Below are positions 10,418 through 27,415 of a stretch of 27,415 nt of DNA, piece by piece. Origin of the DNA: an uncultured Porphyromonadaceae bacterium (GTDB taxonomy: Bacteria > Bacteroidota > Bacteroidia > Bacteroidales > UBA11471); NCBI GenBank assembly GCA_900542765.1, contig UQOX01000030.1:1-27415 (forward strand), written 5' to 3'. Position 1 is the first letter of the stretch. Each line of letters starts with the position of its first letter. The position numbers were made by a program, and so were the translations under genes. The notes under the pieces are model-generated. The model was not told the DNA's origin and made no database searches. It saw only the letters and a list, made by a program, of their open reading frames with translations.

Positions 10418-13400
10418 GCACAAGGTTTTTTGATGTGGAACAATGCCGTATAGAACAGCGGTAGGAGTATGAGGGTAATGATTGTCCCCACGGTGAGTCC
10501 GCCCATGATGGTGATGGCCATCGAGCCGTACATGGGGTCACCGACGAGGGGTATCATGCCCACGATGGTCGTGAGTGAGGCCATGAGTACGGGGCGAACG
10601 CGGGACACGGTGGCTTCTACTACGGCATGATAGGGGTGCCGGTGTTCTTCGGTGATGAGCCGGTTGATTTCATCGACGAGCACGATGGCATTTTTTACCA
10701 TCATACCCATGAGACCCATCATGCCGATGATGGCCATGAACGTGAAGGGCTGTTGCAGGAAGTAGAGCGAGGGAACGATTCCACACAGGACAAACGGCAG
10801 GCATAGAAGAATGAGCCCTACTTTTTTCCAACTGTTGAAGAGCAGCAATAAGATGCCCAAGATAAGGAATATGGTGATAGGAACGTATTTCAACAAATTC
10901 AATATCGCATCGTGTTGCAATTCACCTTCTCCCACCCAACGCATTTCATATCCGTCGGGGAGAGGAATAGCCTCTATCTCGTCCTTGATGCTTGCCACGG
11001 CTTTGGCCGGGGTCGCGTCGAAGAGGGCATAGTTGGGGTCGCACTGCGCTTCGATGACCCGTTTGCCGTTGAGGCGCATCACACAACTCTCTTCCCAATC
11101 GAGACGCATGTCGGGAGCGACGTTGCTGAGCGGGGTGCTGCGCACCATGTTGTCGTGCAATTCGTTGAACCCTGTTCCCCCGGTGAGTGCATTCATCACT
11201 TCATTTTCGTCAATGCGCACATTCATCATGCTCCATACGGGAATGTCGCCCAAGGACGAAATGCGGCTCCCGTCGTCATTGCGTACAAGCAGGCGAACGG
11301 GCAGTATGCGGTCTTGTTCGTAGATGACACCCACCGGCAGACCGTCGGTGGCGGCCAACAGGGCATTTCCGATGTCGCTCCGGCTGATGCCCGCGCGCAA
11401 GGCGTCTTGTCGCACATACTCGGCCACCAACGTCTTGCCTTTGGCTTTCCAGTTGTTCTCGACCGAGTAGGGGTCGATATAGGGGCTGTGCCGCATGATT
11501 TCCTCGGCTTGGCGGCTCAGGTCGCGCAGCACGGCCGGGTCGGGACCGGCAAATTCCACCTCTACCGTGTGGGAGGTCGAAATCGAGAAGTTGTATTTGC
11601 GTGCCCGGATATAGGCATCGGGATATTGGTTGCGCAGTTCATCGAGAATGACAGGTATCGATTCGACGACGACATCGTAGTCTTCGCAATCGACAATCAG
11701 TTCGCCGTAACAGTCTCCGCCCGAGGTCATGGGCCTTACGAGACAGTAGTGCGCCGGGGCGCTTCCCATGCTGGCCGATACCCGCACGATACCTTCTTTG
11801 GTTTTGAGTTTGCGGCTTATTTCGAGAAGGTCTTCTTTTACGTCATCGGGGCTGCTTTGCGCCGGCAAGAAGTACTCGATGACAAACTGGTCGTAGTCGA
11901 AATCGGGGAAAAACAGGTTCTTCACCTTTGTCATGCCGTAGGCCGAAAGCAGCAATACGCACACCGCTGTTGCGATGGTTGTTTTTTTGTACTCGATGAG
12001 GGTGGCGATGGTATGACGCACAAAACGGTGGACGGGAGAGTTCATGCAACCCTCTTTACTCGTGGTTTTCTCCCGAGGAGAAAGCCACGATTTGGCACAC
12101 ATGGGTACTTGTATGAGGGCCAATACCCAACTGGCCAAGAGACTCACGCAAAGTACGAGGAACAGGTCTTTGGCATATTCGCCGGCCGAGTCGGGTGAGA
12201 GGTAGATGCAAATAAACGTGGCGGCGGCGATAATCGTGGCGCCCAATAGCGGTAGGGCGGTGTTCTGCCCGATGCGATAGAGGTAGGTCTTAGGGCCGAA
12301 GCCGCGTTTCTTGTCGATGAGAATGCCGTCCATGATGACGATGGCGTTGTCGACGAGCATACCCATGGCTACGATGAAGGCTCCCAGCGAAATGCGTTGC
12401 AGCGTGGTGCCGCATGCCAGTAGTATGGGGAAGGAGACGGCGATGGTGAGGACGAGCCCCACGCCGATGATGAGGCCGCTGCGGAATCCCATGGTGAAGA
12501 CAAGTACCAAGATGACAATGAGCACCGACTCCAACAGATTGAGCATGAATGAGCCGATGGCGGCATCTACCAGGTCGGGCTGGAAAAATATCTTTTCGGT
12601 CTCCATGCCCACAGGTACCTGTTGCATCACTTCGGCCAGTCGGGCATCGACGGCTTTGCCTACGTCGGGGACGATGGCATCGTTTTCGAGGGCGATGCAG
12701 ATGGCGATAGCCGGTCTCCCGTCGACAAAGAATCCGTTGCGTTGGGGCTCGGCATAGGTGCGTTCGACCGTTGCCAGGTCGCCCAGACGCAACTGTTTCC
12801 CATCGGCCGTCGTGATGAGGAGGTCGCGTATGTCGTCTTCGTTCGAGAGGGCACCGTCGATGCGTAGCGGAATGCGGTCGCCTTCCTGTTGATAGCTGCC
12901 GGCATCGATGGGTTTGCCGGCATTTTGCAAAGCCATCATGACTTGTGTGGGGATAAGGCCGTTGCGGGCGAGAGTTTCTTTGGAAAAAGTCAAGTTGATG
13001 CTTTCTTCGCGGTTCCCGGCGATGATGACCCGTTTTACCCCGCTTACGCCCAAGAGTTCTCGTCTGATGAATTTGGCGTATTTGTACATCTCGGGATATT
13101 CATATCCGTCGGCAGTCAGGGCGTAGAAGATGCCATACACGTCCATCATGTCGTCGATGACGACCGGGTCGTAGCAACCGGCCGGGAGCATTGCCTTGGC
13201 ATCGTTCACCTTGCGCCGCAGCAGGTCGAAGTGTTGTTCGAGTTCATCGAGCAGTACGGTCATCTTGAATTCAACGGTAATTATGGCTGCGCCGTTTTGG
13301 CATTCGCTCTTTATCTTATGCACATTGGGCAGGGCGCGCAATTCGTCTTCCATGACCTGAGCCGCGTTCAACTCTACCTCATGCGCATTTGCTCCGGGCC

Positions 13401-13551
13401 AAGGTATCACGACCATGGCCTGTTTGGTGGCTACGGCAGGGTCTTCGAGTTTGGGCATTGCCATGAATGCCATGACGCCCGCCAACAAAATACCCGCCAT
13501 GAGCGACCAGAAGAGGGTGGGCCGTTTGATAAAAAATTCGGTTATTTTCAT
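10414..13551 (-). CDS. RND-family efflux pump, inner membrane subunit
   Basis: This 1045-residue protein is a full-length AcrB/MexB-type resistance-nodulation-division pump. It begins with the classical cytoplasmic N-terminus and TM1 (EFFIKRPTLFWSLMAGI). Two periplasmic loops each follow TM1 and TM7, and it ends in a TM cluster near LILLPLFYTALFHI. The proton-relay region in TM4 reads VDNAIV with Asp401 and Asn402, where AcrB has two aspartates; TM10 retains the lysine (Lys953 in MMVKNAIVL). Substrates cannot be inferred. It sits in the middle of the operon: its ATG overlaps the adaptor's stop by one base (TAATG) and its stop overlaps the TolC start (ATGA). Confidence 0.93.
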   Translation of the reverse strand: MKITEFFIKRPTLFWSLMAGILLAGVMAFMAMPKLEDPAVATKQAMVVIPWPGANAHEVELNAAQVMEDELRALPNVHKIKSECQNGAAIITVEFKMTVLLDELEQHFDLLRRKVNDAKAMLPAGCYDPVVIDDMMDVYGIFYALTADGYEYPEMYKYAKFIRRELLGVSGVKRVIIAGNREESINLTFSKETLARNGLIPTQVMMALQNAGKPIDAGSYQQEGDRIPLRIDGALSNEDDIRDLLITTADGKQLRLGDLATVERTYAEPQRNGFFVDGRPAIAICIALENDAIVPDVGKAVDARLAEVMQQVPVGMETEKIFFQPDLVDAAIGSFMLNLLESVLIVILVLVFTMGFRSGLIIGVGLVLTIAVSFPILLACGTTLQRISLGAFIVAMGMLVDNAIVIMDGILIDKKRGFGPKTYLYRIGQNTALPLLGATIIAAATFICIYLSPDSAGEYAKDLFLVLCVSLLASWVLALIQVPMCAKSWLSPREKTTSKEGCMNSPVHRFVRHTIATLIEYKKTTIATAVCVLLLSAYGMTKVKNLFFPDFDYDQFVIEYFLPAQSSPDDVKEDLLEISRKLKTKEGIVRVSASMGSAPAHYCLVRPMTSGGDCYGELIVDCEDYDVVVESIPVILDELRNQYPDAYIRARKYNFSISTSHTVEVEFAGPDPAVLRDLSRQAEEIMRHSPYIDPYSVENNWKAKGKTLVAEYVRQDALRAGISRSDIGNALLAATDGLPVGVIYEQDRILPVRLLVRNDDGSRISSLGDIPVWSMMNVRIDENEVMNALTGGTGFNELHDNMVRSTPLSNVAPDMRLDWEESCVMRLNGKRVIEAQCDPNYALFDATPAKAVASIKDEIEAIPLPDGYEMRWVGEGELQHDAILNLLKYVPITIFLILGILLLLFNSWKKVGLILLCLPFVLCGIVPSLYFLQQPFTFMAIIGMMGLMGMMVKNAIVLVDEINRLITEEHRHPYHAVVEATVSRVRPVLMASLTTIVGMIPLVGDPMYGSMAITIMGGLTVGTIITLILLPLFYTALFHIKKPCA

Positions 13552-14615
13552 TACAGTACCCCTCCTACGTTGGTTTGAGAATTGTGTTCGAGAATACGCA
13601 CTTTGTCGTGTTCTTGCAACGTATTGACGCCGGCATTCACGATGCGTTCGTCCCCGTCGAGACCCTCGACGACGATGGCCCGGCCTGTCTCGTCGGTGCC
13701 GTCGACGACAAGGCTGCGGCGCGACACGGTAGAGTCGTCATTGACGACCCACACGCAGGTTTCGCCGTTGTTGTAAAACAAGGCGTGCAGAGGCAATGTG
13801 TAGGCTCCTGCCGTGTCGGGATTGCTGAGCCGGACAATGACTTCGACGTTCAATCCCGGTGTGATTTCTTCGGCGGGAAGGGTTTCGAAAGTCAGTCTCA
13901 TTTTATAGAGTTGGTTGCCGTCGGCTTTGGGCGTGATGCCGACCAATTTCAAGGGCAACTCTTCTCCCGAGGCATGGAGTTGCCGGCATGAAATGCGCTC
14001 GATGAGTTTGCGTTGTGCATAGAGCGATGCCGGAATGTCCAATGTCACATCGAGCCGGTGGGTGTCGAGCAGCGTGATGAAAGGGGTTCCGGCATCGACC
14101 ATTTCGGCCTCTTCAAAGTTGATGTTCTGCACATATCCGCCGACCGGGGCATGGAGTCGGGTATAATTGCATTTGTTGCGGTTGATTTGTAATTGCACGC
14201 CGACTTGTTCGAGACCGGCTTTGGCTTTCTCGTAATCGTTCCCGGCCAGGCTGTTGTTTTCATAAAGTTGTTTGAGCCGGGCCACTTCATGGCTTAATTG
14301 CTCATGCTGTATCTCCAAGGCTTTGATGCCCAGGGTGTAGTCGGAGTCGTCGAGACAGGCCAACAGTTGGCCTTTTTCCACGCGGTCACCTTCTTTGACG
14401 ACGATGCGTTCGATTTGTCCCGCCGTTTTGAACCCCAGGTTTATCTCTTGGGCTTCTTCTACGATGCCTGTGAAGGATTTGAGCGAGTAGGGCAGAAGCG
14501 GAGTTGGCGTGGTCAATTCTGCGCTTCTTTTCAGTTGTGTGTCCTGTTGGGGAACTTGGCAGCCCGTAAAAGGCAGCAAGCCGATGAGTAACAGTAGTGT
14601 GGGTGATGCTTTCAT
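13551..14615 (-). CDS. RND periplasmic adaptor (membrane fusion lipoprotein)
   Basis: This 354-residue HlyD/AcrA-type adaptor bridges the pump and the TolC channel in the periplasm. It has a lipoprotein signal peptide with Cys19 (PFTGC). A biotinyl-lipoyl-like half motif (VVKEGDRVEKGQLLACLDD), a helical hairpin centred on the LKQLYENNSLAGNDYEKAK segment, the second lipoyl half (LHAPVGGYVQNINFEEAEMV), and beta-barrel and membrane-proximal domains follow. It is the first gene of the adaptor-pump-TolC operon. No regulator gene of TetR, MarR or AraC type is adjacent. Confidence 0.92.
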   Translation of the reverse strand: MKASPTLLLLIGLLPFTGCQVPQQDTQLKRSAELTTPTPLLPYSLKSFTGIVEEAQEINLGFKTAGQIERIVVKEGDRVEKGQLLACLDDSDYTLGIKALEIQHEQLSHEVARLKQLYENNSLAGNDYEKAKAGLEQVGVQLQINRNKCNYTRLHAPVGGYVQNINFEEAEMVDAGTPFITLLDTHRLDVTLDIPASLYAQRKLIERISCRQLHASGEELPLKLVGITPKADGNQLYKMRLTFETLPAEEITPGLNVEVIVRLSNPDTAGAYTLPLHALFYNNGETCVWVVNDDSTVSRRSLVVDGTDETGRAIVVEGLDGDERIVNAGVNTLQEHDKVRILEHNSQTNVGGVL

Positions 14616-15778: not shown

Positions 15779-16315
15779 TTACACGTTGGCACCCATGCGG
15801 TAGGCTTCGTCGAGGAGGGGTGTCCCGTCGATGTCGCCCATTTTCCAAACGCCGCAACCGTAGAGGCACCCTTTCTCGACGGCTCCTTCGAGGCAGTCGG
15901 TGAAGCCGCGCAGGCTGTCGAACGTGCGTTCCAAGAGTTGCTTTTCTCCCTCGGCCGCCGTGGCGATGAAATAAAATTCCTTGTTGCTGATTTCGGTGTA
16001 GCGGGCGCAGCAACGGTCGATGAATGTCTTCATCTGCCCGCTCATCGTGTAGAAGTAGACCGGCGTCGCCAGCACGATGACATCGGCCTGAATCATCTTC
16101 TCGACGAGCTCTGCAACGTCGTCTTTTTGCGGGCAGGGTTTCCCGTAGAGGCTGCATACGCTGCACCCGGTGCAGTAGTTGATGTGTTTGTCGGCGAGAA
16201 AAATTTTCTCGACATGGTGCCCTTTGTCGAGGCTTCCGGCCATGAAGCGGTCACACAGGGTGTCGGAGTTTCCGCCCCGTCGAGGGCTTGATGAGAGAAT
16301 CAGTATGTTTTTCAT
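15779..16315 (-). CDS. Iron-sulfur-flavoprotein-like NAD(P)H-dependent FMN reductase
   Basis: The 178-residue protein has the flavodoxin-like fold of the NADPH-dependent FMN reductase family. The opening ILILSSSPRRGGNSD is the FMN phosphate loop, and ATPVYFYTMSGQMKTFIDR is the second flavin-contact region. Cys48, Cys51, Cys54 and Cys61 form a C-x2-C-x2-C-x6-C cluster. This matches the compact 4Fe-4S motif known from archaeal iron-sulfur flavoproteins. It should be cytoplasmic, passing electrons between NAD(P)H, FMN and Fe-S partners. It is the last gene of the nine-gene operon: its ATG overlaps the tatC stop as ATGA. In-frame codons upstream to 16363 lie inside tatC and add no fold. Confidence 0.85.
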   Translation of the reverse strand: MKNILILSSSPRRGGNSDTLCDRFMAGSLDKGHHVEKIFLADKHINYCTGCSVCSLYGKPCPQKDDVAELVEKMIQADVIVLATPVYFYTMSGQMKTFIDRCCARYTEISNKEFYFIATAAEGEKQLLERTFDSLRGFTDCLEGAVEKGCLYGCGVWKMGDIDGTPLLDEAYRMGANV

Positions 16316-17112
16316 TGTTTGGTTTCTGTTTTGATTGTGTGTTTGACGATAAAGATGCTCCATTCATAGAGCAGGTAGATGGGTAGCGCGACGATGGAGA
16401 GCGTGAAGACATCGCTCGTCGGGGTGATGATGGCGGCAACAACCAGTATCACCACGATGGCATGGCGCCGGTATTTCTGCATGAACTCGGTCGTGAGGAT
16501 ACCCAGCCGGGCGAAGAGCCAGCAGAGAATGGGTATTTCAAACACGACTCCCATCATCAGCGTGATGGTCATCATCGTCTCCATGTAAGATTGGAGGCTG
16601 ATGAGGTTTTCTACATCGGGGCTTACCTGGTATGTGCCGAGGAACCTGAACGTGAGCGGGAAGATGAGGAAGTAGCTGAGCAGTACTCCGGCCATGAAGA
16701 GCAGGTAGCTGTATGTGACGGCACGCACGACATACTTCCGTTCGTTGACATAGAGCGCGGGGGAGACGAACCGGAAGAGTTGGTAGAGTATGTAGGGCGA
16801 TGTGCAGAGCACCGCGGCATACATGGCGGCCGTCATGTGTGCCGTGAACTGCCGGGCCAGACCGGTGTTGATGAGCTCTACCGTGAAAGGCTTTGTCGTC
16901 TCGCCCCACAAACCGGCCAGTTTGTCGAGGAGCCGATAGGTAATGAAGTCATTCTCCTGCGGGCCGAGAATCACGGCAAACAACTGCTCTTTGAAGACAA
17001 ATGCCGTGATGCCCAGTGCGATGACAACGACAACCACCTTTATGAGGCAAGCCCTCAGGTCATCGAGATGTTCCCAGAAACTTTGTGGCGTGTCTGTTGT
17101 CGGGTGGCTCAT
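16312..17112 (-). CDS. tatC: Sec-independent (twin-arginine) translocase subunit TatC
   Basis: This 266-residue polytopic protein is the signal-peptide-binding core of the twin-arginine translocase in the inner membrane. It has the family landmarks: the N-terminal FWEHLDDLR, the periplasmic [12 protein letters not shown] loop, the FEIPI segment in the fourth helix, and IITPTSD before the last helix. About six membrane helices are visible. Its ATG overlaps the tatA stop (17109-17112, ATGA), and its own stop overlaps the downstream FMN-reductase start. Being in one operon with proteins that carry RR motifs suggests it exports them. Confidence 0.95.
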
Positions 17113-17330
17113 TTCGGTTGGTCGTCCTCTTTCGGTTTTTGAGGAGCGTTTTCGTCATTATCGGGGTCTTTCTCGATGCCGTTTACTCCGTCCTTGAAAC
17201 TGCGGACGCCTTTGCCGATGCCTTTCATCAGCTCGGGAATCTTTTTGCCGCCGAAGAGCAGCAGCACGATGAGGGCGATAACGAGAATCTCTTGCATACC
17301 GATACCTCCGATTAGCAATAATGTGTTCAT
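17109..17330 (-). CDS. tatA: Twin-arginine translocase subunit TatA/E
   Basis: The 73-residue protein has a single short N-terminal membrane helix ([24 protein letters not shown]), the FG dipeptide at the helix end, an amphipathic helix ([14 protein letters not shown]), and an acidic tail rich in Asp, Glu and Pro. That is the standard TatA layout for the pore-forming component that polymerises around TatC. No separate tatB is present, so this looks like a minimal TatAC system. Its ATG overlaps the stop of the upstream S-component gene by one base (TAATG). Confidence 0.95.
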
Positions 17331-17842
17331 TATTTTCGAATTATATAGTTAATACAAGTGTATCCGCCGAAAATTTGCAGGAGCATGCCGGGAATGCCCA
17401 TACGCAAATCCTGTGCGGCCAGGTAGGCGCTGCCGGTAATTGCCCATTCGCCGATGAAGCCGATGGCCTGGTAAGCCACCACGACCGCCGCAAGGAGCAG
17501 GAGGGAGGCTTTGTGGAAGCGAGCGGCCGTAAGACCGGCGACGATGGCGAGGCATGCCGATTTCAACAGTATGGCGGGCAGAGCCGCAGCGGCCGGCATG
17601 CCGAAGAGCAGGCTGTTGATGACCGGCGAAAGCACGGCGGTGAGCAGACCGGCCTTCCAGCCGTATTTATAGGCGGCTATCAGGGTGAAGAAGTAGATGG
17701 GCAACCAAATGAGCCCTCCTTGCGGGAGCAGATGGAAGAGTTGCGGCAGAATGATGTTCCCGGCCACGAAGAGCAGGGCGATGCCGTAGGTCTTGGCTTG
17801 GCCGTAGGGGAGAGAATAGAGTCTGACAGTTGATGTTTGCAT
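17330..17842 (-). CDS. ECF-type transporter S component-like membrane protein
   Basis: The 170-residue protein has about five to six hydrophobic segments. It carries a signature shared by substrate-binding S components of energy-coupling-factor transporters: a '[19 protein letters not shown]' helix followed by [13 protein letters not shown]. These proteins bind vitamins, cofactors or their precursors in the inner membrane and borrow a common EcfAA'T module; no such module lies in this window. It starts 12 bases after the TonB-dependent receptor stop, so the two probably move the same compound across the two membranes. The substrate is not readable from sequence. An uncharacterised small membrane protein of another family is the alternative. 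Confidence 0.65.
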
Positions 17843-17854
17843 AGTTATATGATT

Positions 17855-19729
17855 TTAAAATTGAATATCGAACCCGCCCATGCAGGTGGCCCGAGGCATG
17901 GGGTAGCCTTCGTTTATCTCATATTTTTGTGCCAGCAGGTTTTCCCCTTTGGCAAATATAGTTAAAAAACGGAATATCCGATAACGGGCACACAGATTCC
18001 ACAACAGGAAATTTTCACGCTCCGGTGTGTCGAGAGCGGTGTAGAGGCCGTGCACATATTGCACATCGCTCGATACCGACCAGCGGTCGTCGCTGTAACC
18101 GACCATTGCGCAGGCTTTATGCTCGGGCGAAGCCAGCAGCGGTCGTTCCATGTGCAGCCAGCTGTATTGTGCCGAGGCTCTCCATGACGGGGCGATTTGC
18201 CACTGGGCCTCGCATTCGATTCCCACGTTCTCGATATTCCCGGTATTGACGTTGAGGGTACCGTTGGGTACGCGCACGGTTTGTATCAGGTTGCTGCCGG
18301 TGAGGTAGAAGAGGTTGACGCCATAGGAAAGCCGTTCCTGCGGAATGTGTTGCGAGAAGGCGATTTCGTAGTTGATTACCCGCTCGGGTTGCAAATCGGG
18401 ATTTTGCGGCGGGAACATATACATTTCTCTTATCGTGGGATTGCGGAATCCTTTGCCTACCACCGCTTTCATCTCGATGTGGCGTGGAAGATGCAGCGAA
18501 ATGCCGCCTTGGGGAACCCACTCGTTCCCCACATGGGAATTGTGGTCGAATCGCACTCCGGCGTCGAGCGTGAGCCGTTGTGTGATGTCCTGTCGCATGT
18601 CGACATACCCGGCGATGTCGTCGATGTTTTTGTCAACCAGCATTTGACGGGAGTCGGTGGCCGGAAAGCGATTCCACGCTTTGCCGCCGAAGTGTTGGTA
18701 ATCAACGCCCAAAGTGGTAAGGTTCCCCTCGAAGAGACGGACGTTCTGGTATGCCGATAGGCCGGCCATGTGGTCTTTGGAGTTGAACCGGTAATCCAGC
18801 GGCATGCCGCCCTGCACATAACCGTCGTTGATACGGTGGCGGCCCCAGTTGTAAAAAGCCGTCACGCTACCCGAGGTTTTCTCGTAACGGTTTTGGACAT
18901 AAAGCGAGGTCACTCCCCGGGTGATGTGCGAATCGTTATCGATGCGCGGAGCCGATACCGGCCCGGGATTGGAGGCGTTGAAATGTGTCAGGTTCAGGTC
19001 GGCGCCTGTTTCCCAAGCCGACGACAGCGTGTATGAAAGTTTGACGCTGCCTCCCATCTGTTCGAAACCCATGTCGCGGCGGTGACCGTCGGTGCGGTTG
19101 TAGAAAGCCGAGACCGTGCTGCCGAAATTTCTTGCTTTCGTCTGGTTGGTCACCTCGCTCGTCAAGGTGTTGAATGAGCCGTATCCCGCTCTGAGCCGGG
19201 TGTGCGAACCTTCGTCCGCTTGCCGGGTTACGATGTTGATGACACCGCCCATGGCGTTTGAGCCATAGAGCATCGAAGCCGGGCCTCTCACGACCTCCAC
19301 TTTCTCGGCGATTACCGATTGATAGGCATCGGCAATCGGGTGCCCCATGAGTCCCATGTATTGCGGGTGCCCGTCGATGAGTACCAGCAGTCCCGATGTC
19401 GGACTGTTGCCGATGCCGCGCAGGCTCATGCCTCCGGCTGCCCCGGTCGATACGCCATAACCCAGGATACCCCGGCTTGTGACGAACAGTCCCGGCACAT
19501 GCGCGTTGAGAACTGGGAGTAGGGACGATTCATGGCTATCCTCAATCATGTCGCGGCCGATGACCGTCACGGTCGACGGGAGCCTTCGGCTGTCGGTCTC
19601 GCTGCGGGTGCCGGTAATGACTACTTCGTCGATGTCGACACCCTTTGAGAGAGAAAGCGAGTCGACCATCGACGAGGCCGTGGGGAGATTCACCAGCATG
19701 AGCAGGCACACGAGAATCGGGTTACGCAT
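17855..19729 (-). CDS. TonB-dependent outer membrane receptor
   Basis: The 624-residue protein has a signal peptide (MRNPILVCLLMLVNLPTASS), a TonB-box/plug start (DEVVITGTR), and a plug domain with the usual landmarks (MSLRGIG, VLIDGHPQYMG, VEVVRGPASMLYGSNAMGG, INIVTR). A 22-strand-type barrel follows, ending in a terminal phenylalanine (GGFDIQF). It lacks the N-terminal CarboxypepD-reg extension of SusC proteins and has no SusD partner. It is therefore a BtuB/FecA/CirA-like importer of a small high-value ligand rather than a glycan receptor. Its start overlaps the DUF1893 stop by 8 bases, and an S component follows. Ligand unknown. Confidence 0.92.
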   Translation of the reverse strand: MRNPILVCLLMLVNLPTASSMVDSLSLSKGVDIDEVVITGTRSETDSRRLPSTVTVIGRDMIEDSHESSLLPVLNAHVPGLFVTSRGILGYGVSTGAAGGMSLRGIGNSPTSGLLVLIDGHPQYMGLMGHPIADAYQSVIAEKVEVVRGPASMLYGSNAMGGVINIVTRQADEGSHTRLRAGYGSFNTLTSEVTNQTKARNFGSTVSAFYNRTDGHRRDMGFEQMGGSVKLSYTLSSAWETGADLNLTHFNASNPGPVSAPRIDNDSHITRGVTSLYVQNRYEKTSGSVTAFYNWGRHRINDGYVQGGMPLDYRFNSKDHMAGLSAYQNVRLFEGNLTTLGVDYQHFGGKAWNRFPATDSRQMLVDKNIDDIAGYVDMRQDITQRLTLDAGVRFDHNSHVGNEWVPQGGISLHLPRHIEMKAVVGKGFRNPTIREMYMFPPQNPDLQPERVINYEIAFSQHIPQERLSYGVNLFYLTGSNLIQTVRVPNGTLNVNTGNIENVGIECEAQWQIAPSWRASAQYSWLHMERPLLASPEHKACAMVGYSDDRWSVSSDVQYVHGLYTALDTPERENFLLWNLCARYRIFRFLTIFAKGENLLAQKYEINEGYPMPRATCMGGFDIQF

Positions 19730-20147
19730 GGGTATGCAGATTCATGTTTTTTACAAAAGTGTCGATGAGTGGCAGGCATTCTTGCGGAGTGTCTGCGTTG
19801 GCGCACAACTTTTCGAGCGGACAGCGGTCGGTGTGGGTGCGGTTGATGATGTAGGCGACTTTCTGCCCATAAGCGACTTTTATGCCGGCACGCGTGAGCA
19901 TCTCATAAGCACTCTCGCTGATGACGTCGGCATAGAGTTCCTTTATTCCGCCGATGGCCATGAGGGCTGCCGCACCTTTCCCCACCACTTTGTCGGCCAT
20001 TTCGGCGCCATGCAGGAATTCGGGTGCTTCGTTTACGAGCATATAGAGGTCGTTCACCCCCCGTTGTGTGAAGGTACGGGTCGTGTTACCCTGTCTGATG
20101 ACGCAGGAATAACCTCCCTCATGCAGTTGCTCGATGAGTTGTTCCAT
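19722..20147 (-). CDS. DUF1893 family protein
   Basis: The 141-residue soluble protein matches DUF1893 (PF08973, related in fold to cytidine deaminases through TM1506). The hallmarks are the DKVVGKGAAALMAIGGIKELYADVISE stretch in two parts (ADKVVGKGAAALM, then the GIKELYADVISESA block), AGIKVAYG, and the NRTHTDRCPLEKLC tail. Enzymatic function is unknown for the family. No signal peptide, so it should be cytoplasmic. The ATG at 20147 follows the aldo/keto reductase stop by 7 bases and fits the family N-terminus; an in-frame codon at 20165 would overlap the previous gene and adds nothing. It lies between a Tat-exported reductase and the outer-membrane receptor. Confidence 0.85.
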   Translation of the reverse strand: MEQLIEQLHEGGYSCVIRQGNTTRTFTQRGVNDLYMLVNEAPEFLHGAEMADKVVGKGAAALMAIGGIKELYADVISESAYEMLTRAGIKVAYGQKVAYIINRTHTDRCPLEKLCANADTPQECLPLIDTFVKNMNLHTHA

Positions 20148-20154
20148 ACGATTA

Positions 20155-21552
20155 TTAAAACACATTTCCCTGTTTTAAGTTCTCGACAAAGCGGTCGATG
20201 CGTTGCATTTCTTGCGCAATGGCGATATTTTGGGGACATTCGGGCTCGCATTGCCGGCAGCCAATGCAGTGTGAGGCTTGGCGCAGGCGGGGTACACTGC
20301 GGTCGTAACCCACGAGGAACGCACGCCGCGCTTCGCGGTAATTCTCGGCTTGGGAGCTTTCGGGAATATATCCTTCGTTCACGCATTTGTTGTAGTGCAG
20401 CAAGATGCCGGGTATGTCGATGCCGTAGGGGCAAGGCATGCAATATTTGCAATCGTTGCAGGGAATCGAGGGATATTGCATCATGAGGTCGGCCGTGTCG
20501 TAGAGGAACTTGAACTCTTCTTCCGAGAGCGGTTGCAAGGGAGAGAACGAGCTCAGGTTGTCTTGCAGGTGGTCCATGTAGGTCATGCCGCTCAATACGG
20601 TCAATACGCCCGGGAACGACCCCGCGAAGCGGAAGGCCCAGGAAGCAACGCTGCGGTTGGGTTCCCGTTTCTTGAAACGGGCCACGATGTGGTCGTGCAC
20701 CTTTGAGAGGCGGCCACCCAGCAACGGCTCCATGATGATGGCGGGGATATGACGCTTTTCGAGTTCCTGGTATAGATATTCGGCGTTGGTGTTGCGACGG
20801 TTGATTTCTTTGGCGTGGTGCCAGTCGAGGTAGTTGAGCTGGATTTGCACGAAATCCCATTGGTAGTAATCGTGTCGCGAGAGCAGGTAGTCAAAGACCT
20901 TGATGTCGCCGTGATAGGAAAATCCGAGATTGCGGATACGGCCGGCCTTGCGCTCTTCGAGCAGGAATTCGAGCATGCCGTTGTCGATATAGCGCGATTC
21001 AAATTCTTTCATGCCGTCATTGCCCATGCCCACGCCGTGCAACAACATATAGTCGATGTAGTCGACTTGCAGCTCCTTGAAGGAGTTGTGATACATTTGC
21101 ATCGAGGCTTCCCGGCTCCATGTCGAGGGCGAGAAGTTCGACAACTTGGTGGCGATGAAATATTTGTCGCGCGGGTAGCGGCTCAGGGCGATGCCGGTGG
21201 CCTTTTCCGACTCTCCCCGGCAGTAGCTGGGAGATGTGTCGAAGTAGTTCACGCCGTGGGCAATGGCATAGTCGACCAGTTGGTTGATGGTCTCCTGGTC
21301 GAGCTCGTTGTGCCCTTCGGCATTCTTGCGGCTGGGCCATCGCATGCAGCCGTACCCCAGCAGCGAGATGTCGTTGCCGTGGCCGTCCTGTCGGTAGGTC
21401 ATGCCGCCCTCGGGCAGAGAATCTTTCCCGGGGGTGTTTCCGTTGCCACAGCCGTAGAGGGCCGCCGTGGCGGTGATTGTACCGGCTCCCATGATTTTGA
21501 GGAAGTCGCGGCGATTGATGTTTCCCTTTTTGTTGTTATGTTTCTTGTCCAT
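20155..21552 (-). CDS. Tat-exported aldo/keto reductase with C-terminal 4Fe-4S clusters
   Basis: The 465-residue protein begins with a twin-arginine signal (NRRDFLKIMGAG, Arg14-Arg15) that ends in a probable lipobox (LYGC, Cys35), so it should be folded with cofactors and then anchored outside the cytoplasm. The aldo/keto reductase barrel has the catalytic tetrad Asp105, Tyr110, Lys136 and His172 (YFDTSPSY, ATKLS, LLHGVG). The C-terminus carries two 4Fe-4S motifs: C365-C368-C371-C374P and C429-C432-C435-C439P. Ferredoxin-tailed AKRs are common, usually cytoplasmic; export makes this one unusual, since NADPH is not available in the periplasm. Electrons may instead arrive via the clusters. It follows the NapH/G-like gene by 12 bases. 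Confidence 0.9.
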   Translation of the reverse strand: MDKKHNNKKGNINRRDFLKIMGAGTITATAALYGCGNGNTPGKDSLPEGGMTYRQDGHGNDISLLGYGCMRWPSRKNAEGHNELDQETINQLVDYAIAHGVNYFDTSPSYCRGESEKATGIALSRYPRDKYFIATKLSNFSPSTWSREASMQMYHNSFKELQVDYIDYMLLHGVGMGNDGMKEFESRYIDNGMLEFLLEERKAGRIRNLGFSYHGDIKVFDYLLSRHDYYQWDFVQIQLNYLDWHHAKEINRRNTNAEYLYQELEKRHIPAIIMEPLLGGRLSKVHDHIVARFKKREPNRSVASWAFRFAGSFPGVLTVLSGMTYMDHLQDNLSSFSPLQPLSEEEFKFLYDTADLMMQYPSIPCNDCKYCMPCPYGIDIPGILLHYNKCVNEGYIPESSQAENYREARRAFLVGYDRSVPRLRQASHCIGCRQCEPECPQNIAIAQEMQRIDRFVENLKQGNVF

Positions 21553-21564
21553 GATGGTGCGGCA

Positions 21565-23049
21565 TTAGATGATACGGTGTTGTTCTACTCCCTCGACATA
21601 GATGGCGCTGAATGGCCGGCTCGGGCACAGGTTTTCGCAGGCTCCGCAACCGATGCATTTCTCGGTGTTGACGACCGGCAGTTCCACCTCTTTCCCCTCG
21701 ACGGTCTCTTTTACCATCTGTATGGCTCCGGTGGGGCAGTGGCGGGCACAGTTGCCGCAGGAGACTCCATCGGTGAGCGGAATGCAGTTTTCTCGCACCA
21801 CGACGGCATGTCCGATTTTTGTGGACGATTTCTCTTCGCGGGTTATCAGATGTATGGCTCCGGTGGGGCACACTTCCGAGCATTTCGTGCATTCGGGACG
21901 GCAATATCCGCGTTCATACGACATCTCGGGTTGCATGAAGGTCGACAGGTCGCTCGACGGACGCAGTACCTGTGTGGGGCACACCGACACGCAGAGCTGG
22001 CAGGCGGTGCAATGCTGCCGCAGGTTTTGGAGACTTCCGGCTCCCGGCGGTACCAGAGGGGTTGCCCGTGAGGGTATCTTCTTGTCGATGATGGGAGCAA
22101 GGCCGCCGTCGATTTTCTTTTCCTGGGCTTCCACGGCACCGGCCATCAGCACACCGGCCGTTATGAGGAACTGTCGGCGCGAAGTCGGCGCATCGCCGCC
22201 CGCTGCGGGTGATGTCGTGTCCTCTTTCTTGGCCCGCCCATAGTAGATGGCGCCTTTGCTGCATGCCTCGATGCAGTCCATGCAGTCGACGCAACGGCTG
22301 TAATCGATGCGGTGTTCTTTGGCGTCGATGCAGGCGGCTTTGCAACTGCGGGCACACAGTCCGCACCGGTTACATTTCGAAGTGTCGATGCGCGGACGCA
22401 GCCAGGCAAAGCGCGACAGCACGCCCAGCACCGTGCCGACGGGGCAGATGGTGTTGCAATAGGTGCGGCCGTTGCGCCAGGCCAGTATGGCGATGATGAT
22501 GAAGGTGGCGAGTGCTATGAGGAACGTCGGCAGATTCCTCAGCCACACGTCGGTGGTGTAGAAGGCGTAGCTGTCGACACGTTCGGCAAAGTATGCCAAG
22601 GCATTGTTGCACCAGCCGTAGATGGGGGCGAAAAGATTCTGGGCGATGCGTCCGTAGGAACTGTATGGGGCAAGCAGCGCCACGAATGATGAGATGCCGG
22701 CAAGAAGGGCAACAATGAAAATCGCCAACACGCCATATCTCAACCACGACAGGGCGGGAGAGTGCGAGAAGCGGTATTTCCCCTTTCCCCGACGGCTGTG
22801 CAGCCCCGACACGATGTCTTGGAACACGCCCAACGGGCAGATAAGCGAGCAATAGACCCTCCCGAAGAGCAGTGTCAGGACGACGAGCCCCAGGACGATG
22901 ACGACGTTCATCGCCAGCAGGGCCGGCAGGAACTGTATTTTTGCCAGCCACCCAAACCACGCATGCAGGCTGCCCGTGAAGTCGAGAAACAGAAGCGTGA
23001 TGAGCAGGAAACAGATGAGGGCTGCAAGGATTCGGATTTTTCGTAACAT
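21565..23049 (-). CDS. NapH-like membrane ferredoxin fused to an exported NapG-like ferredoxin domain
   Basis: The 494-residue protein joins two modules. Residues 1-215 form a polytopic NapH/NosR-like domain with the paired C-x3-CP motifs (C67/C71 and C198/C202). Two 4Fe-4S clusters on a presumed cytoplasmic loop follow (C226-C229-C232-C236 and C253-C256-C259-C263). A second export-like signal, SRRQFLITAGVLMAGAVEA (Arg291-Arg292), leads into a ferredoxin domain with about four more clusters (cysteines 347-357, 383-394, 422-438 and 465-475). Known NapH and NapG are separate proteins that pass electrons from quinol to periplasmic reductases. Here the fusion should carry electrons across the membrane to a periplasmic partner, most simply the exported aldo/keto reductase encoded next. 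Confidence 0.9.
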   Translation of the reverse strand: MLRKIRILAALICFLLITLLFLDFTGSLHAWFGWLAKIQFLPALLAMNVVIVLGLVVLTLLFGRVYCSLICPLGVFQDIVSGLHSRRGKGKYRFSHSPALSWLRYGVLAIFIVALLAGISSFVALLAPYSSYGRIAQNLFAPIYGWCNNALAYFAERVDSYAFYTTDVWLRNLPTFLIALATFIIIAILAWRNGRTYCNTICPVGTVLGVLSRFAWLRPRIDTSKCNRCGLCARSCKAACIDAKEHRIDYSRCVDCMDCIEACSKGAIYYGRAKKEDTTSPAAGGDAPTSRRQFLITAGVLMAGAVEAQEKKIDGGLAPIIDKKIPSRATPLVPPGAGSLQNLRQHCTACQLCVSVCPTQVLRPSSDLSTFMQPEMSYERGYCRPECTKCSEVCPTGAIHLITREEKSSTKIGHAVVVRENCIPLTDGVSCGNCARHCPTGAIQMVKETVEGKEVELPVVNTEKCIGCGACENLCPSRPFSAIYVEGVEQHRII

Positions 23050-23058
23050 AATAGGATT

Positions 23059-23604
23059 TTATTTTTTAAGGAGGTCATGGGTCTGTAACCATTTCTTGAT
23101 GGTAGTATCGGCTTTGCCGGCTTCACTCCCCCGTATCGGCAAGCCGGGCAGTAATGTGGCTTTGGGGCATAAATCCTTGATGTCGCTTTCGCTATGTCCC
23201 ATGCGGCTCCCTTCGTGTGTCATGAAGGGTACGATGGTTTTCCCTGCGAAGTCGTGAGTCGTGAGGAATGTGGCCACGGGAGGGGCTATCGTGCTCCACC
23301 AGCACGGTGAGCCGACAAAGAGGGTGTCATAGGGTGTCAGGTCCAGGTCCGATTCTTGTAGGGCCGGTCTTGCTCCGGCTTTGATTTCGTTGCGGGCCTG
23401 GTCTACGACCGCTTGATAGTCGGCCGGGTACTCATTCTCGGGAACAATCTCGAAAATATCGGCCTGGGTGAGTTCTTGGATTTTTTCGGCCACGATGCGG
23501 GTGTTCCCGCTGTGAGAAAAGTACACGACCAGCGAGCGAGCCTGCATGTCGAGGTTGGTCGCTATGGCTGCTGTTGCTGTGAGTATGGATAATATCTTTT
23601 TCAT
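23059..23604 (-). CDS. Exported flavodoxin
   Basis: The 181-residue protein is a flavodoxin (Flavodoxin_4-like). The FMN phosphate loop is VVYFSHSGNTRIVAEKI, the second flavin-contact segment is FVGSPCWWSTIAPPVATFL, and THEGSRMGHSE ends the binding site. In front of the fold are about 23 residues (MKKILSILTATAAIATNLDMQA) that look like a Sec signal peptide cleaved near MQA, so the protein should act in the periplasm. It has no RR motif. It is the first gene of the nine-gene operon, 9 bases before the NapH/G-like fusion, and could be its electron partner. Many Bacteroidales flavodoxins carry such leaders. How it acquires FMN outside the cytoplasm is not evident. Confidence 0.88.
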   Translation of the reverse strand: MKKILSILTATAAIATNLDMQARSLVVYFSHSGNTRIVAEKIQELTQADIFEIVPENEYPADYQAVVDQARNEIKAGARPALQESDLDLTPYDTLFVGSPCWWSTIAPPVATFLTTHDFAGKTIVPFMTHEGSRMGHSESDIKDLCPKATLLPGLPIRGSEAGKADTTIKKWLQTHDLLKK

Positions 23605-23808: not shown

Positions 23809-25128
23809 TTATAGCAGGTAGTCGGTAATTTTACCGCTGATTTGCAGCAACGATATTTCGCACAGTTTGGTGTCGTATTCGGCCGTAAGAATGCGCTCTT
23901 CGGCGTCGAGCAGGCTCTTTTGCGCTTCGCGCAGTTCTATACCCGACAAGTTGCCCAAGATATATCGTTCACGGGCAATGAGATAATTTTCTTTGGCGGC
24001 CGTGAGGTTTTCGCGTTCGAGATTCAGCACCTCGATGTTGTTTTTGTAGGCTTGCCACAGGTTGCTGATGTCGGCGCGCAACGACTGCACGATGTCTTTT
24101 TGTTGCAGTTCGGCATTTTGGGCGGCGATGCGGGCGTTCCGTATCTCGCGGCGACGGTTCCCGTCATAAATATTGAAGCCGAGCGTGATGCCGAAGTTGG
24201 CGCCCAGGTTGTTGCGCCTTCGTGTCGTATTGGTGCGGTCGTAGGTGTTGAGGGTATATCCATATCCGGCGTTGAGGCGCACATAGGGATAGTTGCGCGA
24301 GAAGACTTTCTTCAAGTCGAGGTTGGCAATGGTCTTGTCTTGCTCGGCTTTGAGCAGGGAGGCGTTGGTTTGCAGGGTCGAGGTCCATAGCTCTTCAAAG
24401 ACGAGCATCGTATTGACATCGATGACCGTGTCGACAACGGCGATAGGATTGCTCATGTCGGCGATGGCCATCAATTCGTTGAGTCGAATGCGGGAACTGT
24501 GCAAGGTCTCCTGTTGTTTCATGTATTGGGCACTGTCGGCATTGAAGTCGACACGCGCTTGCAGCAGGTCGAGCCGTGAGAAGTTGCCGATTTGGTACCT
24601 CTCTTCGACGATGCGCAGACGCTCTTTCGAGAGCGACACGGCATAGAGGAAGTTTTTGAGACGAATCTCCTGTTGGATATAGTTGTAATATTCCGACGAG
24701 AGTTGTGCGATGTAATCCTCTATGGCGATGCGTGTGAGGGTCTCGCCCTGTTTTTCGAGCTCTTTGAGTATTTGGTACTCGGTGATGATGGAGAAGCCGT
24801 CGAAGATGGTCCAGTTCAAGTCGACACCCACATTCACGTTGCCGGCATACAACCCGGTGTTATGTTCCGTTGCACCCTCGGCGCGGGCGATACTCTTCGT
24901 GTTGTCGACATTTCCGTTGTATCCGGCCGTCAGGTCGACCGTCGGCAGCATGCCGGCATTGCCGCGAGTGGCGTTGTTTCGGGCCATTTGCTCCTCGTTG
25001 CGCACGATGCGCAGCGAATAGTTCTGTTCGAGGCCGGTCTCGATGCACGATTTCAGCGAGTAGGGCTCTTGTCCCTGCACGGCCAGGGAAAGACCCAGCC
25101 ATAAGGTTATGAAGGATAAGGTTCTCAT
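23809..25128 (-). CDS. TolC-family outer membrane efflux protein
   Basis: This second TolC-like channel is 439 residues long. It has a signal peptide (MRTLSFITLWLGLSLAVQGQ) and two OEP halves: the opening YSLKSCIETGLEQNYSL, and the second half ending ELREAQKSLLDAEERILTAEYD. Its ATG overlaps the stop of the preceding RND pump as ATGA (25125-25128), so it belongs to a second tripartite efflux operon. Sequence resemblance to the first TolC here is only at family level. No convincing terminator was found between its stop and the flavodoxin promoter. Confidence 0.92.
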   Translation of the reverse strand: MRTLSFITLWLGLSLAVQGQEPYSLKSCIETGLEQNYSLRIVRNEEQMARNNATRGNAGMLPTVDLTAGYNGNVDNTKSIARAEGATEHNTGLYAGNVNVGVDLNWTIFDGFSIITEYQILKELEKQGETLTRIAIEDYIAQLSSEYYNYIQQEIRLKNFLYAVSLSKERLRIVEERYQIGNFSRLDLLQARVDFNADSAQYMKQQETLHSSRIRLNELMAIADMSNPIAVVDTVIDVNTMLVFEELWTSTLQTNASLLKAEQDKTIANLDLKKVFSRNYPYVRLNAGYGYTLNTYDRTNTTRRRNNLGANFGITLGFNIYDGNRRREIRNARIAAQNAELQQKDIVQSLRADISNLWQAYKNNIEVLNLERENLTAAKENYLIARERYILGNLSGIELREAQKSLLDAEERILTAEYDTKLCEISLLQISGKITDYLL

Positions 25129-27415
25129 TCTTCGGGGGTATGTTTGCGTGGGGTGGATATATAGGTGTAGATGGCAGGTACGATATACATGGTCATGAAG
25201 GTCGAGATGAGCATGCCGCCTACTACGGCGATACCCATGGCAACGCGGCCGTTGGCTCCTTCACCGCTGGCATATGCGAGCGGGAGCAGGCCGAGGATCG
25301 TAGCGGCGCTGGTCATGAGAATGGGACGCAGTCGTTGTATCGAGGCTTCTCTGATGGCCGAATGTTTGTCGATGCCGCTTTCTTGCCGCTGGTTGGCAAA
25401 TTCCACAATCAAGATACCGTTCTTGGCAACCAGCCCGATGAGCATGATGATACCGATCTGGCTGAAAATGTTCATCGTCTGGTCACTGAAAAACATGAAC
25501 ACGAGGGCTCCGCAGATGGCCAGCGGCACGGTGAGCATGATGATGAACGGGTCTTTGAAGCTCTCGAATTGGGCGGCCAGTATCAGGTATATCAGAACCA
25601 ACGCCAAAATAAAGGCAAACATCAGGCTCGACGAACTTTCGCGGTACTCCTTCGAGTCTCCCGTCAAGGCTGTGCGGAAGGTGTCGTCGAGTGTTTCGGC
25701 GGCAATCTTGTCCATCTCGTCGAGACCTTGGCCGATGGTTTTCCCCTCGGCCAATCCGGCCGACACCGTAGCCGACACGAAGCGGTTGTAACGGTAGAGT
25801 TGGGGAGGAGCCGTGCCCTCCACGAGCGTGATGAGGTTGTCGAGTTGTATCATGTCGCCGTTGCTGTTGCGAATGTAGAGCGATTTCAGGTCGACCGGCT
25901 TGTTGCGTTGCTGGCGGTTGATTTCGCCGAGAATCTCATATTGCTTCCCGTTCATGTAGAAATATCCCATGCGCTGGCCGCTCAATCCGTATTGCAGCGT
26001 TTGGGCGATGTCGCGGGTGGTAACGCCCAGTACGTTGGCTTTTTCACGGTCTATTTCGATGCGGGCCTCGGGCTTGCTGAACTTCAAGTCGACGTCGGCC
26101 ATTTGGAATACCGGGTTTTCATAAACCTTGGTCATGAAGACCGGCAGTACCTCTTGCAGTTTTTCGAGGTTGGCCGCCTGTATGACATATTGCACCGGCA
26201 TGCTGCCCCGGCGTCCGCCGAAGGTCGATTGCTGTTGCACAAACGCGCGGGCCTTGGTTTTTGTCTGCACGGCCTTGGAGAGTTCCTCGGCCACCTGCAT
26301 TTGCGTGTAGTCGCGGTCTTTGATGTCTTTCAACATGATTTCGACGTTTCCGCTTCCGCTCGACACACGCGCCGTGATAGCCGTGGCGTCGGGCACAATA
26401 GAGTCGGCCAGGAGATTTATCTCTTCGGTGTAGTCGCGCATGAATTCATAAGTCACGCCTTCGGGACCGCGGGTGTTGATGGTGATGCGCGAACGGTCTT
26501 CGAGCGGCGCCATTTCCGACGGAATGTTTATCCACAGGTAGCCGATGATACCCAGCATGACAATGATGATGGGCAAGGCCAGGTAGCGGTGCCGCAAGAA
26601 GATGTCGAGCGAGCGGGAGTAGTAGTGGTTCATGCCCACGAAGAAGGGCTCGGTCTTGCGGTAGAACCAGTTTTTCTTTTCTTGCCGTTTGAGCAACTTG
26701 GTGGCCAGCATGGGGGTGAAGGTGAGCGCCGCGAATGCCGATATGAGGACGGCTCCCGACACCACGATGCTGAACTCGCGGAAGAGCCGCCCCGTCGTTC
26801 CTTCCATGAACACGATGGGGAAGAATACGGCCACCAGGGTGATGGTCGTCGATATGACGGCGAAGAAAATCTCCTTTGAGCCTTCGATGCCCGCCTCTTT
26901 GGGCGACATGCCCCGTTCTATGCGGATATAGATGTTCTCGGTCATCACGATGGCATCGTCGACCACAAGGCCCACCGCCAGCACCACCGCGAGCATCGAA
27001 AGCACGTTGATGGAGAATCCGGCCAGGTACATGACAAAGAAGGCGCCGATGAGGGATACCGGAATGACCACGCAGGGCACCAACGTGACCCGCCAGTCGC
27101 GGAGGAAGAGGAAGATGATGATGATGACGAGAACGAAGGCTTCATAGACGGTGCTTTCGACCTCATTGATGGAGGCGCGGATAAATTTCGTGTTGTCGAA
27201 GCCGTAACTGTATTTCACATCTTCGGGCAGGTCCTTTTGCATCGATTCCATGCGTTCATACACGGCATCGGCGATTTCGATGTGGTTGGCACCCGGTTGG
27301 GGAATGACCACGACGCCGACCATCGGCACGCCGTTCATCTTCATGTAGCTGCGCGTGTCCTGCGGTCCGAGTTCGGCGCGCCCGACGTCGCTCAAACGGA
27401 TGATGCGGTCGTCCT
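25125..27415 (-). CDS. RND-family efflux pump, partial (N-terminus outside window)
   Basis: At least 762 C-terminal codons of an AcrB/MexF-type (HAE-1) pump are present. The frame is open through the right edge of the window, starting with DDRIIRLSDV, so the true start is beyond it. It includes the end of the first periplasmic domain (GVPMVGVVVIPQPGAN), TM2-TM6 with the intact proton-relay pair in VVDDAIV, the second periplasmic domain (residues SEMAPLEDRSRITIN onward), and TM7-TM12 with the conserved lysine (GLVAKNGILIVEFA). This differs from the other pump, which has Asp-Asn. Its stop overlaps the downstream TolC start. The adaptor gene is presumably upstream, outside the window. Confidence 0.93.
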   Translation of the reverse strand, partial: DDRIIRLSDVGRAELGPQDTRSYMKMNGVPMVGVVVIPQPGANHIEIADAVYERMESMQKDLPEDVKYSYGFDNTKFIRASINEVESTVYEAFVLVIIIIFLFLRDWRVTLVPCVVIPVSLIGAFFVMYLAGFSINVLSMLAVVLAVGLVVDDAIVMTENIYIRIERGMSPKEAGIEGSKEIFFAVISTTITLVAVFFPIVFMEGTTGRLFREFSIVVSGAVLISAFAALTFTPMLATKLLKRQEKKNWFYRKTEPFFVGMNHYYSRSLDIFLRHRYLALPIIIVMLGIIGYLWINIPSEMAPLEDRSRITINTRGPEGVTYEFMRDYTEEINLLADSIVPDATAITARVSSGSGNVEIMLKDIKDRDYTQMQVAEELSKAVQTKTKARAFVQQQSTFGGRRGSMPVQYVIQAANLEKLQEVLPVFMTKVYENPVFQMADVDLKFSKPEARIEIDREKANVLGVTTRDIAQTLQYGLSGQRMGYFYMNGKQYEILGEINRQQRNKPVDLKSLYIRNSNGDMIQLDNLITLVEGTAPPQLYRYNRFVSATVSAGLAEGKTIGQGLDEMDKIAAETLDDTFRTALTGDSKEYRESSSSLMFAFILALVLIYLILAAQFESFKDPFIIMLTVPLAICGALVFMFFSDQTMNIFSQIGIIMLIGLVAKNGILIVEFANQRQESGIDKHSAIREASIQRLRPILMTSAATILGLLPLAYASGEGANGRVAMGIAVVGGMLISTFMTMYIVPAIYTYISTPRKHTPEE

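Follow-up and report, generated by a model that had tools for sequence, protein, structure and literature searches.

What does an operon do that encodes a protein translocase, exported redox proteins and transport proteins of both membranes side by side? In the window, i.e., the whole stretch of 27,415 nucleotides of contig UQOX01000030.1 that was analysed, nine minus-strand genes run from position 23604 to 15779 with intergenic gaps of −11 to +12 bases, confirming the same-strand operon that had been proposed from the letters alone (henceforth the original prediction). In order, they encode an exported flavodoxin, a fusion of NapH- and NapG-like parts (NapHG), an aldo-keto reductase (AKR) lipoprotein with a twin-arginine translocation (Tat) signal, a DUF1893 protein, a TonB-dependent receptor, an S component of the energy-coupling factor (ECF) type, TatA, TatC and an FMN_red flavoprotein (Table 1). 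The nearest genome (G001) carries the same nine genes at 97–99 percent protein identity. We read the operon, at slightly better than even confidence, as an extracytoplasmic reductase module, in which NapHG would pass electrons to a periplasmic AKR that reduces a compound, for which the TonB receptor would in some cases serve as importer.

A conserved core of NapHG and a predicted exported reductase

AKR loci were collected by scanning named genome contigs with the AKR, and the best 80 of 596 supported stretches were retained, with record titles naming Bacteroidales for 75 (other groups in L075, L081, L084, L108, and L145). Same-strand genes chained by gaps of less than 400 bases were assigned to one cluster; loci cut by contig ends were kept in, and all cluster counts among the 80 are lower bounds. 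NapHG was found in 72/80 AKR clusters, DUF1893 in 42, the S component in 37, TatA in 19, TatC in 18, the TonB receptor in 12, the exported flavodoxin in 8, a DUF362 protein in 4, and FMN_red in 2. Where present, the genes usually followed the order flavodoxin, NapHG, AKR, DUF1893, TonB receptor, DUF362, S component, TatA, TatC, the exceptions being of three kinds: the flavodoxin followed DUF1893 in 2 loci, FMN_red came first in 2 loci, and the S component preceded the receptor in L040. Other Bacteroidales thus bear out the expected co-occurrence of these families, with a stereotyped gene order. The constant core is NapHG-AKR, and the receptor, flavodoxin and FMN_red are accessories; an uptake route as a constant part of the operon, as originally proposed, does not agree with the counts for NapHG versus those for receptor and S component. 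Close relatives of the AKR also occur on two records of Bacteroidales plasmids, NZ_OY725888.1 (68.5 percent identity) and NZ_OY725762.1 (65 percent).

The sequences themselves show which genes are present and in what order, the Tat and lipobox signals, the cluster motifs and the catalytic tetrad, as well as the co-occurrence, the TatC grouping and the lack of a detected EcfT. Twin arginines (RR) and a lipobox cysteine were present in the AKR of 89/89 loci (the 80 loci and nine TatC-centred ones, of which three repeat L071, L088, and L089, leaving 86 distinct), and residues G22 and C35 were invariant in the alignment of relatives. The protein has the barrel fold and the Asp-Tyr-Lys-His tetrad of the aldo-keto reductase superfamily. 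All 81 long NapHG relatives contained an RRx[FM] motif and 38 of them the strict [ST]RRxF pattern, and the G001 protein matched the TAT_signal model PF10518 at an E-value of 0.11. Against the equivalog models, the fusion scored 74 of 234 bits (NapH) and 68 of 269 bits (NapG), both below cut-off; by these scores it is a member of the same superfamily and not a nitrate-reductase equivalog. Its two cluster motifs are predicted to be cytoplasmic. In the three loci scanned for it, the gene preceding the exported flavodoxin encoded a carbonyl reductase (Table 1), which hints at a substrate with a carbonyl group.

The closest described counterparts are the NapH/NapG and “NapH-like” extracytosolic systems of Meheust et al. 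2021 (PMC8238504), which likewise combine a membrane NapH carrying Fer4_5 motifs with an exported polyferredoxin and an extracytosolic oxidoreductase, the partner enzymes being modular. The operon differs in the fusion of NapH and NapG into a single protein, whose RR signal is internal, and in the partner, an AKR lipoprotein instead of the nitrate, nitrous oxide, nitrite or organohalide reductases or ethanol oxidase described there; in the main text of the paper, the strings “aldo” and “bacteroid” have no occurrence. Flavinylation-based extracytosolic electron transfer was rejected as a classification, as a Pfam scan of the nine operon proteins found neither FMN_bind nor ApbE domains among them.

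The Tat translocase and its clients

TatA, TatC and proteins with RR signals, as expected of a translocase of the TatA-TatC type, are all encoded in the operon, export being predicted from sequence. When four genomes of the genus were searched with TAT_signal, the AKR was matched in 4/4 and NapHG in 3/4 (E about 0.1), and there was one further pair at E 1.2 and three single matches at 0.09–2.7; the match at E 0.09 lies at C8:9253 of the genus member G007. In G001, one TatC was found, located in the operon. The small subunit of a [NiFe] hydrogenase, encoded outside the operon, also bears a Tat signal (TIGR00391, TIGR01409), so that the Tat system is not private to the operon. A scan for RR motifs covering 1.90 of about 2.4 Mb of G001 gave 36 matches, compared to 43, 32, and 74 for the control motifs KR, RK, and KK, which is chance level by count; three full-consensus matches were taken as real by eye, one of them confirmed by NCBIfam. 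Genes for small, large and cytochrome b subunits of an uptake-type [NiFe] hydrogenase lie at C12:36667-40853 of G001 (L232, L233), and H2 could feed the quinone pool of this genome via the enzyme.

The observation that the Tat genes lie beside two RR-bearing proteins was upheld, and the TatC copies linked in this way group together in trees. Among 56 different sequences, 26 operon copies fell on one side of a branch (93/91), which was recovered in 94 percent of 200 bootstrap trees, with support values that are not settled; such a group counts as a clade only when the root falls elsewhere in the tree. The tree was extended, under a simpler model, by 20 TatC places from 19 AKR-bearing genomes that were presumed to be unlinked, and omits L039, L058, and L070 (long or odd rows). 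L163 and L165, in both of which an S component directly precedes tatA-tatC, were placed inside the operon group (28 rows after enlargement, support 99/90), and of the other 18 added sequences, 16 lay in a single group with stand-alone TatC, and L159 and L164 were placed near the base of the operon group. In 99 relatives, an AKR at 1e-60 or better was found in 22 genomes, all of which have TatC, and in none of the 15 TatC-less genomes (Fisher 0.02; 0.065 with one genome per family). TatC was present in 48/49 genomes behind the 80 loci, a second sample that has at least four genomes in common with the first. TatA and TatC have been noted in seven Bacteroides (PMC6281302).

Proposed electron route and competing explanations

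NapH proteins are thought to take electrons from menaquinol. In the module proposed here, NapHG would lie in the inner membrane, its four helices carrying two ferredoxin-type clusters on the cytoplasmic side, and the internal twin-arginine segment would place the four-cluster NapG-like half in the periplasm. The electron donor would be menaquinol or else a ferredoxin or flavoprotein of the cytosol, for which the FMN_red protein of the operon is a candidate, and the electrons would pass to the 4Fe-4S clusters of the adjacent AKR lipoprotein, anchored on the periplasmic face. With its intact tetrad and presumably exported folded with nicotinamide bound, the AKR would then reduce a carbonyl- or quinone-like compound. 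The receptor, where present, would pump this compound across the outer membrane to the AKR, and the S component might bind the product or supply a cofactor. On this proposal, tatA-tatC would be encoded in the operon because both redox proteins are Tat substrates. We infer the topology, the direction of electron flow and the substrate, as well as what the receptor, the S component, DUF1893 and the flavodoxins would contribute. A partial likeness exists in the glucose-fructose oxidoreductase of Zymomonas, which is Tat-exported and brings its nicotinamide along from the cytoplasm; it belongs to another family and is not known to use 4Fe-4S clusters or NapHG.

Several observations weigh against the proposed module. 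One-electron clusters need a flavin for the reduction of NAD(P), which leaves the electron path into the AKR site unexplained, and the predicted AKR structure is of moderate confidence (pLDDT 73) and poor in the ferredoxin half, so that the cluster-to-site distance cannot be read from the model. NapHG was missing at the threshold used from 8/80 AKR clusters, some of them cut by contig ends. TatC of seven Bacteroides genomes (L151-L157) falls in another group, and hence the AKR does not require a TatC of the operon type; the association of AKR and TatC is weak because most relatives (84/99) have TatC. Finally, neither MenD above cut-off nor the futalosine family was found in G001, whose quinol pool would therefore depend on a precursor from outside.

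In the route of the original prediction, a vitamin or redox cofactor enters through the receptor, is reduced by the periplasmic enzyme and then passes inside, in its reduced form, by way of the S component. In clusters holding both, receptor and S component are indeed neighbours or one gene apart. The receptor is BtuB-like in size and has BtuB as its best match among solved structures (4e-18, PDB), a likeness to BtuB-BtuCDF cobalamin uptake. Its scores of 139 of 599.7 bits (TIGR01779) and 106 of 836 bits (NF007926) are far below the BtuB equivalog cut-offs, however, and the operon contains no BtuCDF. Several polar residues are conserved in the S component, H37 and K94 without exception and E132, D145, and R147 nearly so, and the protein shares its fold with those of ECF vitamin transporters (RibU, ThiT, FolT, BioY), from which it differs by the missing partner: EcfT (PF02361) was found in 0/7 genomes of the genus, G001 included, and in 2/17 S-carrying genomes, being undetected in the other 15, which argues that it is no part of a canonical ECF transporter and leaves the predicted inward transport by an ECF complex unsupported. 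An AxxxA motif, which we take to be the EcfT-binding one, occurs in 9/41 S components and was not used as evidence. Given also how few clusters hold a receptor or an S component, and the vitamin markers and riboswitch scans below, we consider this route unlikely.

Of the 17 S-bearing genomes, 12 were checked for vitamin and quinone markers. DHBP synthase (riboflavin) and NadA (NAD) were present in 12/12 and ThiC in 10/12 (missing in G008 and G048), and G001 has the synthesis markers for riboflavin, NAD and thiamine; by these markers, the vitamin auxotrophies in question are mostly absent, and a lack of any of these three was discarded as the general reason for the S component. Rfam searches of the window (evalue mode) gave two matches, both below gathering scores, and those of 14 of the 80 loci (gathering scores) gave three tRNAs and one SAM-II, the latter in L113, where it lies past the operon by about 4 kb; neither search revealed a riboswitch close to the operon.

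Somewhat less likely again is that the S component works outward and supplies flavin or another cofactor to the flavodoxin or the AKR. This would resemble EetB of Listeria, a relative of ECF substrate-binding subunits that, according to PMC9973259, is needed for flavin export to extracytosolic redox proteins; in both cases an S-type protein is tied to such proteins. The best solved match of the S-component fold is RibU, tied with other S components, and the operon flavodoxins, with Sec- or lipoprotein-type signals by eye, would need flavin outside. The Listeria exporter uses an ECF-T-type subunit (FmnA) and ECF ATPases, whereas EcfT was not detected here, FmnA-type T subunits and ATPases not having been searched separately, and flavinylation domains are missing from the nine proteins. 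Moreover, the flavodoxin is much rarer in the clusters than the S component (8 versus 37 of 80). It lacks an adjacent S component in the clusters of L101 and L120, for which the clusters only were examined, and in those of L073 and L075, yet S-TatA-TatC occur elsewhere in the latter two genomes.

It is improbable, in our view, that tatA-tatC, an oxidoreductase pair and an uptake pair are chance neighbours in a loose housekeeping cluster with a promoter alone in common. Forty tatC places were hand-picked from the TatC list of the relatives and inspected for up to ~10 kb per side; 10 combined tatA-tatC with an S component or NapHG-AKR, 10 had only tatA and 20 neither, so that 30/40 would suit such a cluster, as would the hydrogenase as another Tat substrate elsewhere in G001. 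Chance is contradicted by the gene order, which is kept over several families, by the AKR in 16/17 S-carrying genomes, the two co-occurring even when not adjacent (e.g., G025), and by the grouping of linked TatC in trees.

MenD was above cut-off in 8 of the 12 S-bearing genomes, among them the receptor-bearing G025 and G036, and the futalosine family in 0/12; loss of MenD as a general correlate of the S component was rejected among these S carriers. The two genus members with a receptor in the operon, G001 and G007 (the latter 83 percent complete), are both without MenD above cut-off and have UbiA-family genes, one of which in G001 is MenA above the TIGR00751 cut-off. Neither MenD above cut-off nor a futalosine-family protein was found in G001, G007, G008, and G048, which judged by these markers are likely dependent on an outside menaquinone precursor. 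Growth of a B. clarus strain with menaquinone-4 or menadione, and weakly with 1,4-dihydroxy-2-naphthoic acid (DHNA), is described in PMC5738691, where transporters for such compounds are discussed as not yet found; another B. clarus strain (L099) has AKR, receptor and S component. That the receptor imports an oxidised aromatic or quinone-type growth factor (e.g., DHNA-related), which NapHG-AKR reduces and the lone S component takes inside, is invited by the receptor-bearing, MenD-less G001 and G007 and the MenA kept in G001, and is very improbable because most S carriers tested have MenD.

As a whole, the original prediction was partly supported: co-occurrence and Tat linkage stood, and the constant uptake route, ECF import, private Tat system and vitamin auxotrophy lacked support.

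Features, neighbouring genes and significance

Table 1 Operon features in the window and carbonyl reductase genes at related loci (TM, transmembrane; SDR, short-chain dehydrogenase/reductase)
Feature	Position	Strand	Characteristics
Exported flavodoxin	23059..23604	-	PF12682 1.4e-31; Sec-type signal, MQA cleavage site by eye
NapH-NapG fusion	21565..23049	-	Four predicted TM helices, two cluster motifs, internal RR signal, polyferredoxin half
Internal Tat signal of NapH-NapG fusion	22126..22182	-	SRRQFLITAGVLMAGAVEA, residues 290-308
Tat lipoprotein AKR	20155..21552	-	Aldo-keto reductase with two C-terminal 4Fe-4S motifs
Tat signal and lipobox of AKR	21448..21513	-	RRDFLK ... ALYGC, residues 14-35
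DUF1893 / TM1506 family protein	19722..20165	-	PF08973 6.3e-51; signal peptide not seen
TonB-dependent receptor, small BtuB-like size class	17855..19729	-	PF00593 8e-40
ECF-type S component	17330..17842	-	Six-helix S fold
TatA	17109..17330	-	PF02416 1e-15; TIGR01411 above cut-off
TatC, operon group	16312..17112	-	PF00902 1e-65; trees
FMN_red flavoprotein	15779..16315	-	PF03358 2e-25; CxxCxxCx6C motif
Carbonyl reductase, SDR type	L082:6004-6840, L084:5793-6710		Directly before the operon's exported flavodoxin
Carbonyl reductase, AKR type	L072:5846-6832		Directly before the operon's exported flavodoxin

For the FMN_red gene, a start at 16315 is the more likely one. The DUF1893 protein matched the PDB entries 1vk9 (7e-10) and 9e9a (2e-7). 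A single open reading frame spans DUF1893 and receptor in L065:11079-13358 (-), L079:10287-12695 (+), and L128:7059-9509 (+), which could mean that they are fused or coupled in translation. An exported DUF362 protein is encoded between DUF1893 or the receptor and the S component in L088:10896-11876, L089, L079:12715-13701, and L148:12754-13725, the one of L088 having a weak PDB match to LarA-type proteins (E 0.59). In L105:12761-12886 (Bacteroides faecis), the S component match is restricted to a 41-residue open frame and the gene looks broken.

A TolC-like gene (by eye) lies upstream of the operon and a gene for a 232-residue lipoprotein-like product without a Pfam match downstream. Two efflux-like gene sets flank the region at window positions 9062-14615 and 23809-27395 (-); judged by eye from the translations, each represents a resistance-nodulation-division (RND) pump with a TolC-like protein, one set also with an adaptor. 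Scans for sigma-70 promoters and terminators gave nothing above shuffled controls, and a search for a phage origin gave no match.

Literature on this gene set was not found by title or abstract opening, nor was the term “DUF1893”, in a search whose coverage excludes most subscription journals. The parts are of known kinds; the operon varies on them through the fusion, the AKR lipoprotein in the presumed role of terminal enzyme, the S component on its own, and the grouping of TatC. If the proposed module is true, the operon would represent a periplasmic reductase that recurs in gut Bacteroidales and connects electron flow in the membrane to an outside compound, with the translocase able to assemble the reductase encoded in the same operon. 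It would also provide test cases for what an ECF S component does when no ECF module accompanies it, and for whether 4Fe-4S clusters, rather than free NADPH, can run an aldo-keto reductase.

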